Shown here piece by piece: positions 6,234 through 8,699 of a stretch of 8,796 nucleotides of DNA. The position numbers and the translations under genes are program-made. The notes under the pieces are model-generated. The model was not told the DNA's origin. It ran no database searches and saw nothing but the letters and a program-made list of their open reading frames with translations. Origin of the DNA: Candidatus Fermentibacterota bacterium (GTDB lineage Bacteria; JAFGKV01); assembly GCA_030620115.1 (NCBI GenBank), contig JAUXFG010000159.1:1-8796 (forward strand). The letters are read 5' to 3'. The stretch's first letter is position 1. Each line of letters opens with the position of its first letter.

Positions 6234-8699
6234 TCAGCCCCCCTTCCTGGCAATAAAAAATCCATCGTACTCCTTGCCGAAGAAGCTCTTGCGCACCACT
6301 ACATCTACTGTGTCACCGTTATCGACCGCCTTATCCCAGTTCCGCGTGGGGTAGTCCACCGGGCCATCGAACCCATCGAATCTCACGCGCTTACCACGTA
6401 TGCTCCAGTGCAACTCAGCGCCGGAATGGTAGTACGGCTTGATTGAAACGATTCTTGCCGCTTCCAGTTCGACCCTTGGCTGTCTCGACTCCCAGAATCT
6501 CGCATAGGCTCCCAACACCACGATGATTACCAGCACAGAGGAAATAACCGTTCTTGTCCACCACATCTTGGGATTCGTCCTGAAACCACGCCGTATTGAG
6601 AGCGGCAGATTGAAGAAAAAGTCAAAGACCGCATGTTCGAGCAGTCCGCCTTTCTCCCCGAAGACCGGGACAAGGTGGACTGTATTCCGCGCCCATCGGC
6701 CGGCCAAGAAGCGCGCCAAGGCGGGGTCGTGCGTCACCATCTGGAGCGGGAATGCCAGATATCCGATCACATGGATGAACGATATTGGTGCGGCGATGTA
6801 GTAATTCCGTATGTCGCGCTCCTTGATCATAAGGAAGAGCACGAACACACCACGGGTGATCGATCCTGGAGAGATGGGAAGGAGTTGGATCGTAGCGGCG
6901 GCCGCAGTGCCGAGACCCACGCTCTCGACCCAGGAAAGCTGACGGTAGACCAGGCAGTAGACTGTTACCGCTGCTCCCGCCAAAAGCATCACCACCTGTG
7001 TGATGGGCACCGTGCACAGGTGTACCGCAAGGCAACGAAGGTATTTCTGGATATACGGATCCTTGATCTGACCGATAATCTTGTCAGCCTCGCCAGGCGT
7101 GAGCATCCCCTCGTCTCTCCCCATGCGTACCTGTTCCAGCAGCCGCTCTTCCCGGTAGACTGGATCCCGTAAGAACTCAATGCCTCGGCCAAACGCTTTC
7201 CGAATCCGCGCCCATGCCCACGAGAACTCCGTGAAAGCTCGATGCCACTTTGGAGGCAGCCAGCTGAGAACAATACAATCGATCAAGTATTGCACCGGAC
7301 GATCGATGAGTCTGCCGGCCCGATGACACGAGAGCCGGCCTTGCCGAAGCCATCCGATGATGGTCTGGATACGCGATCCGCGCAAGGCGCGACTCAGGTA
7401 GTCCACGCGAGTCAAACAGCGTCTGACATGTTCTCGCGTAACTTCATGACCCCAAACCTTGATGAGGCGATGGCCGAGAATCGGGATCAAGGAGATCAGA
7501 ACAAGCAGCGGGAAGCGGCGCCAAGAACCGGCCGCCAGCTTTGCCACGCCCTTGTCGTCCAACCGGCCTAAATGCTTCCAGCTGGTGATGATGCCGTCCC
7601 TTACCGAGCGACGCAGGGCTCTGCTGGTAAGGAGACGAAAATGATGGTGCGTGATGTCGAACTGTGAAGCTCGATAGGTTTTTTCCTGCTGCTCCAGCTC
7701 ATCGATACCTGATTGCAGATCAGAGAACTCCTCCTCGCGTTCCTTGATAAACGCTTTGAACCTGGAGAGATCGCTCCTGTCGAACTGGACGAATCTCCCT
7801 CGTGCAAGTCCACGCAAGATCAACCATATGTCTGCCGGGCTCATGGGCAGAAAAGGAAGGAGCGTCAGGCCGGCTCGGAAATCGACGGCCGTCAAACCAC
7901 AATCCGGTTCGTCGTCTCTGGAATCCACGCGTTTGAGGGCATTAGGCTGGCTCTTGCATGTCCACCACGTGTACTGGCGTGCAAGCTCCGGTGTCCCCAT
8001 CTCATGCAGCAATGCCACCAGGCGCTGCATGAACAGCTTCTTGTGTACGTACTCAGCGCTATTGTGGTCCCTGGCCGGCTCACCCTGGAACTTCCAGCGA
8101 TCGAACAGACATTCATCAACCTCGAACTTCCAGATACGCCCGTCGATCCATTCATTGATTTCGCCGAAACTGTGATGGTTCTCATCGTAGAATGTCGCGT
8201 ACGTGTCGCAGACTGCCTTCTCGTCTCCGAATCTGTGGGAGGCTGCGCGGCGAATGAGCTTCTGCCAGAGCACCCCGACACGAACGGCCGCAGGATTAAC
8301 TTGGGGGCTGAACGAGCTCTGGAAGCCCAGGAAGTAGAGTAAATTCCGAAACCAGTTGGCAAATGCCGATGGCGGCTTGAGGATTTTGATGGCGTAGGTT
8401 CCGCCGATCTCCAGGCCGATAATAGGCCCGTCCTTTTCCTCAATCTCGACCAGTCTGACCTTGTATACCTGCCCCGCGAATCCACCACCCACGAAACTCT
8501 TCACTTCCAGAACCATACGCCCATGATTCGCCGGCACTATGCCGGTGATTGCATATTCGAGGCGGTCGCCGGGATCGTAACACGTCTTGTGAAAGGGCCG
8601 AACAAGTTCACAAGCTCCGAACTCCTGTTCGAGCTCCTTACGCAAGAGCAGGGACCGGTCGTTCGCGTCAGCCTCTGGATATTCTATTGGTTCAGTCAT
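6234..8699 (-). CDS. Large kinase-like / multi-pass membrane protein of unknown function
   Basis: I do not recognise a named family. From the ATG at 8699 the protein has 821 residues. The N-terminal third resembles a protein-kinase-like fold: a glycine-rich loop GGGFAGQVYKV (71-81), YAIKILKP with K105 in the ATP-lysine position, a hinge-like EINEWIDGRIW (180-190), and LTAVDFRAG (269-277) resembling the DFG segment. The catalytic loop is not recognisable: TWWTCKSQPNALKR (about 244-257) stands where an HxD..N motif is expected, so it may be a pseudokinase or diverged. A charged helical segment lies near 308-345. Hydrophobic segments follow at about 395-414, 555-585, 590-625, 630-655 and 718-733, then a soluble C terminus with two strand-like stretches (YDGFFIARKGG at the end). 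A TTG at 8762 would add 21 residues, which look non-coding. The ATG overlaps an upstream frame as ATGA. The next minus-strand gene is hemW, 396 bases away across repeats. Low certainty on function. Confidence 0.8.
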   Translation of the reverse strand: MTEPIEYPEADANDRSLLLRKELEQEFGACELVRPFHKTCYDPGDRLEYAITGIVPANHGRMVLEVKSFVGGGFAGQVYKVRLVEIEEKDGPIIGLEIGGTYAIKILKPPSAFANWFRNLLYFLGFQSSFSPQVNPAAVRVGVLWQKLIRRAASHRFGDEKAVCDTYATFYDENHHSFGEINEWIDGRIWKFEVDECLFDRWKFQGEPARDHNSAEYVHKKLFMQRLVALLHEMGTPELARQYTWWTCKSQPNALKRVDSRDDEPDCGLTAVDFRAGLTLLPFLPMSPADIWLILRGLARGRFVQFDRSDLSRFKAFIKEREEEFSDLQSGIDELEQQEKTYRASQFDITHHHFRLLTSRALRRSVRDGIITSWKHLGRLDDKGVAKLAAGSWRRFPLLVLISLIPILGHRLIKVWGHEVTREHVRRCLTRVDYLSRALRGSRIQTIIGWLRQGRLSCHRAGRLIDRPVQYLIDCIVLSWLPPKWHRAFTEFSWAWARIRKAFGRGIEFLRDPVYREERLLEQVRMGRDEGMLTPGEADKIIGQIKDPYIQKYLRCLAVHLCTVPITQVVMLLAGAAVTVYCLVYRQLSWVESVGLGTAAAATIQLLPISPGSITRGVFVLFLMIKERDIRNYYIAAPISFIHVIGYLAFPLQMVTHDPALARFLAGRWARNTVHLVPVFGEKGGLLEHAVFDFFFNLPLSIRRGFRTNPKMWWTRTVISSVLVIIVVLGAYARFWESRQPRVELEAARIVSIKPYYHSGAELHWSIRGKRVRFDGFDGPVDYPTRNWDKAVDNGDTVDVVVRKSFFGKEYDGFFIARKGG

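Follow-up and report, generated by a model that had tools for sequence, protein, structure and literature searches.

A probable membrane-embedded pseudokinase family whose genes are often linked to those of phosphatidylglycerol synthesis

The window, by which we mean the whole 8,796-nt stretch analyzed here and which is an entire contig (G000:C74), carries a complete gene for an 821-residue protein (6234..8699, minus strand) that joins a kinase-like domain to a helical linker, a membrane region and a soluble tail and that has full-length homologues. By the usual definition this protein is a pseudokinase, judging from its sequence and a structural model. It belongs to a family lying outside all profile libraries that we searched, and the genes of many of its relatives sit next to, or in two genomes are fused to, pgpA. 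The explanation that we favor, tentatively and with a likelihood a little short of even, is that the protein is embedded in the membrane, binds nucleotide and, as a pseudokinase or ATPase, helps or regulates the synthesis of phosphatidylglycerol. If this is true, it would tie a kinase-like fold directly and physically to the synthesis of a major bacterial phospholipid, and would provide a testable setting for asking how kinase-like folds act on lipids, the UbiB question included.

The kinase-like domain and its active-site residues

The open reading frame is intact, with an ATG at 8699, and an alternative TTG start would extend the frame to 8762. As the original prediction had it, the family is unrecognised: the protein finds no profile match in Pfam, NCBIfam, PHROGs or PADLOC and no match among PDB sequences, and a search against Pfam returned nothing at E 10, PF00069 and the PgpA profile PF04608 included. 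No strong match to a characterised membrane family over the whole protein was encountered, and no relatives were found among the viral contigs, plasmids and phages searched.

The lobes of a kinase that had been proposed from the motifs and their spacing are recovered by structure prediction. An AlphaFold2 model built from 65 sequences (m7e91b5f4a2ad; pLDDT 86.7, pTM 0.83) places a kinase-like fold at about residues 37-309, followed by a helical linker and then the membrane region; taken more broadly, the kinase-like domain covers residues ~40-345 (7665..8582, minus strand). The matches listed by Foldseek are kinases, none of which reaches E 0.001 with the full 821-residue model as query. With VIA-align the best match is HIPK2 (Z 11.2 over 170 residues at 3.9 A), and the bacterial kinase YabT also aligns (Z 10.7 over 177 residues at 3.3 A); the kinase matches run from about residue 37 to residues 290-309. 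The bilobal kinase fold is thus present in the model, with a C-lobe that appears reduced. It should be noted that in a search with the whole model the kinase domain dominates, and the result says nothing about the fold of the membrane region. An earlier model from six sequences reached a pLDDT of 53 and could not be relied on, although its Foldseek matches were already kinases. Several of the kinase alignments reach a helix that follows the membrane region (model residues ~685-692), as if in the model it were packed at the place of a C-lobe helix. In profile-profile comparison (local hhalign), the family matches Hanks kinases with a probability of 61% (E 8e-5), over the Gly-rich loop and beta3 only.

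All of the motifs quoted in the original prediction, namely VGGGFAGQVY (residues 70-79), YAIKILKP (102-109), WTCKSQPNALKR (246-257) and LTAVDFRAG (269-277), are found in the protein. They are not chance resemblances: an alignment of 65 family members (A3), from which our conservation counts are taken, shows little or no variation in the Gly-rich loop and at K105, K249-S-Q-P-N253 and D273. In the Gly-rich loop, GGGFAGQVY (residues 71-79; 8463..8489, minus strand), the GGG, A75, G76, Q77, V78 and Y79 occur in 64/64 covering rows, as does Lys105 of the beta3 strand (residues 101-107; 8379..8399, minus strand). The alpha-C-like helix (residues 136-157; 8229..8294, minus strand) has Arg140, Trp145 and Arg150 as its conserved residues, and neither the alignment nor the model offers a counterpart of the alpha-C Glu, a loss that the original prediction had overlooked. 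The catalytic-loop equivalent, W-x-T-C-K-S-Q-P-N-A-L-K-R (residues 245-257; 7929..7967, minus strand), contains K249, S250, Q251, P252 and the invariant Asn253 in all 65 rows. The catalytic Asp had been suspected to be missing, and indeed its site at position 248, five residues before the Asn, holds C, W, A, L or M and never D in any row. The DFG-like segment LTAVDFRAGL (residues 269-278; 7866..7895, minus strand) has its Asp273 in 65/65 rows.

A pseudokinase has been defined as lacking one or more of the beta3 Lys, the HRD Asp and the DFG Asp (PMC12599244). With the HRD Asp absent and the Lys and DFG Asp kept, the protein falls within this published definition, and the suggestion of a diverged or pseudo-kinase at the membrane is upheld by both the model and the conservation pattern. 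Nucleotide and metal binding have probably been retained, to judge from the residues that are kept. The family shares with Hanks-type Ser/Thr kinases (PF00069; for example YabT and PknI) the kinase-like fold, the Gly-rich loop, the beta3 Lys and the metal-binding Asn and Asp. It differs from them in the loss of the catalytic Asp and alpha-C Glu, and the window protein differs further in a very short segment after the DFG-like motif, the lack of any Pfam match and the fusion to a large conserved membrane region. Another pseudokinase within a multi-pass membrane protein is that of mycobacterial MviN (ActPs3 family), a membrane protein of envelope synthesis in which the pseudokinase no longer has its nucleotide-binding motifs and does not bind ATP or Mg (PMC12599244). 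In contrast, the window family keeps its beta3 Lys, Asn and Asp invariant, and its membrane partner is a different one. A recent review of bacterial pseudokinase families never mentions planctomycetes, in which many of the relatives described below are found.

The kept Lys, Asn and Asp, together with the rigid K-S-Q-P-N block, also look like a selected active site, and the invariant polar residues of the membrane region (see below) have a similar appearance. The protein could therefore be catalytically active in an atypical way, as a phosphotransferase or nucleotidyltransferase with a kinase fold in which the loop beginning at K249 replaces HRD and which acts on a lipid or protein substrate at the membrane. 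There is precedent for this in kinase-fold ‘pseudokinases’ with other activities, such as AMPylation by SelO and glutamylation by SidJ (PMC12409994, PMC6858067, PMC8548325). The group moiety moved by kinase folds of the SelO, SidJ or NiRAN type is AMP, glutamate or NMP. However, the catalytic Asp is gone together with the alpha-C Glu, and this in two related families (the second being sister family B, below), and no similarity was detected to any family with known alternative chemistry; we consider such an enzyme unlikely, if still a serious candidate.

The membrane region and the comparison with UbiB

The helical linker (residues 346-545; 7065..7664, minus strand) is seen as helices in the model, and its sequence has recurring turns of the G-R/M-L-x(3-4)-A type. 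The conserved membrane region that follows (residues 546-705; 6585..7064, minus strand), recognized by hydropathy, contains the blocks P-x-x-P-G-S-x-x-R-G and G-x-L-x-x-P-x-Q-M and the invariant polar residues R616, Q653, E682, E688 and N697. These residues suggest, at the level of sequence, that the region may do work of its own and not simply anchor the protein. A last hydrophobic helix, supported by the model and by hydropathy, spans residues 710-739 (6483..6572, minus strand). The count of five or so hydrophobic segments given in the original prediction agrees with hydropathy peaks near residues 404, 570, 606-616, 643 and 724. The soluble tail that it described is present at about residues 740-821 (the variable part being residues 745-821; 6237..6467, minus strand), but is modeled with low confidence and is clearly common only to the window protein and one relative (L003). 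The C-terminal end varies across the family, with a transmembrane helix and soluble tail in the window protein, other tails elsewhere, and PgpA in the place of the tail in two genomes.

UbiB/ABC1/COQ8 proteins (PF03109) had been put forward as a partial comparison, and they do resemble the window protein in combining a kinase-like domain with membrane helices in a setting of lipid metabolism. Membership of that group was rejected on sequence, since there is no KxGQ and WTCKSQPN stands in place of HADPHPGN. The family profile matches a UbiB alignment with an hhalign probability of just 0.7%, whereas a positive control, UbiB against Hanks kinases, gave 97%. Furthermore, UbiB/ABC1 proteins have an Ala-rich loop where the window protein has the Gly-rich GGGFAGQVY. 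The rejection is one by sequence; the top 50 structural matches listed happen to include no UbiB structure. A functional rather than genealogical analogy could still be imagined, in which the protein would be a UbiB/COQ8-like ATPase extracting or mobilising a lipid of the membrane; this lipid would be a phosphatidylglycerol precursor or a prenyl lipid. The fold, the membrane helices and lipid-synthesis neighbours that include uppS and cdsA would fit such a role, and UbiB itself, in the part of the literature consulted, offers a precedent as a membrane-linked kinase-like protein with a possible ATPase function in lipid metabolism (PMC7263595). The lack of sequence kinship and of both UbiB motifs argues against it, as do the different and longer membrane region and the true UbiB proteins that several genomes of the family's carriers encode separately, and we find this reading quite improbable.

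Linkage to genes of phosphatidylglycerol synthesis

The original prediction had pointed to the neighbourhood of homologues as informative, and the gene neighbours point more specifically to phosphatidylglycerol synthesis. Neighbour clustering places PgpA (phosphatidylglycerophosphatase A, PF04608) directly upstream in many loci, and Pfam confirms PgpA, a CDP-alcohol phosphatidyltransferase of the PgsA type, UppS and CdsA as neighbours. In one planctomycete class, pgpA lies within ~2.5 kb of the family gene in 39 of the 58 carriers, in one of two layouts: pgpA upstream and on the same strand, or a convergent pgsA-pgpA pair. For unlinked genes the expectation would be about 0.1, with the caveat that shared ancestry voids any formal probability. 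Carriers also possess pgpA more often (55/58) than non-carriers (149/190; nominal p 0.003). Several carriers (G177, G062, G155 and G145) have no PgpA match in the genome. The family gene occurs in only 58 of the 248 genomes of that class and so is not essential to the phosphatidylglycerol pathway. In one clade there is a conserved run of pgpA, the family gene, two unknowns, purA, uppS, cdsA and phoH (L083:6065-12917 and similar). In non-carrier genomes (for example G605:C10, G552:C69 and G502:C48), PgpA often lies within open frames of ~450 aa.

In two genomes (G406 and G431), the family protein carries PgpA as a C-terminal fusion (L121:7951-10590 and L100:6281-8869, both on the plus strand), while the window protein has no PgpA domain. 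The fused domains are recognized with E values of 1.8e-33 and 3.9e-28 and keep the blocks common to stand-alone PgpA copies. Each is the sole pgpA of its genome, and the two sequences are free of Ns. In the family tree, the subclade of the window protein includes one relative next to pgsA-pgpA (L004) and one next to cdsA-uppS (L066), and the link to lipid genes recurs in the sister lineage with the fusions and all through the large clade.

For the window copy itself, no such linkage is seen: the genome carries its pgpA on a different contig, flanked by recR-like and cinA-like genes, and in the window only 97 bp precede the start codon of the kinase-like gene before the contig ends. The other genes of the window encode a SurA/PpiD-like foldase, a chalcone-isomerase-like protein, HemW and a PIN-domain protein. 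This absence, shared with several relatives, and the unrelated neighbours found elsewhere would fit a general membrane signalling pseudokinase for which adjacency to pgpA and pgsA is an inherited gene order without functional meaning. However, three arrangements (upstream, convergent and fused) occur on both sides of the family tree, and the PgpA fusion is hard to explain by gene order alone; we regard this alternative as unlikely.

The linkage to pgpA and pgsA suggests a role but does not show a mechanism. For the assisting or regulating pseudokinase that we favor, we can present a rough proposal. The kinase-like domain would face the cytoplasm and, given its residues, bind ATP and a metal. 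ATP binding, or slow hydrolysis, would then cause a conformational change in this domain which, through the conserved membrane region, could control, or present substrate to, PgsA and PgpA, the enzymes that make and dephosphorylate phosphatidylglycerophosphate. A bolder version, which we think is improbable but worth stating, is that the family represents a new class of membrane-embedded enzymes with a kinase fold in phospholipid metabolism. Lacking the canonical catalytic Asp, these would carry out an unconventional transfer or lipid-coupled ATP hydrolysis by means of the K-S-Q-P-N loop, and would thereby feed or gate the processing of phosphatidylglycerophosphate by PgpA. Our literature search turned up nothing that connects a pseudokinase with PgpA or PgsA.

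Distribution, a sister family and variant forms

Relatives at 57-66% identity come from MAGs labelled Phycisphaerales, Phycisphaerae, Pirellulales, ‘Fermentibacteria’ and ‘Eisenbacteria’. The family is present in 3/3 examined genomes of the window's own phylum and in 14 of 392 sampled genomes of the phylum of a planctomycete MAG, one of these being a weak match to the sister family.

This unnamed planctomycete sister, family B (alignment A4), comprises L025 and 17 others, 18 members in all, and is homologous to the window family along the kinase-like as well as the membrane region (hhalign probability 98.9, E 1.2e-17). Like the window family, it keeps the Lys, Asn and Asp and has no catalytic Asp; it is shorter (520-630 aa) and has a motif of its own, WQAGxGNPVAxANF...DxESGVPAL. 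Its gene neighbours have no common theme, and in contrast to the window family pgpA was seen at none of its loci, most of which are flanked by ~1.5 kb or more of sequence on one side or both. An example is L025:1441-3189 (minus strand).

Several further variants were noted. Two versions of more than 1200 aa (L106:7958-11647, plus strand; L107:7135-10809, minus strand) have an additional C-terminal hydrophobic region and an extra domain that by eye resembles an SGNH-type hydrolase; one of the two genomes with such a version is G155, in which no PgpA was matched. In the window, the chalcone-isomerase-like protein (PF16036; 4114-4698, plus strand) is flanked by the HemW and SurA/PpiD-like genes. 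Finally, the two relatives that come from the window's own family (L005:8028-11889 and L006:1571-5482) have a conserved gene pair downstream, which encodes an unrecognised protein and a protein with an HATPase and a transglutaminase core.
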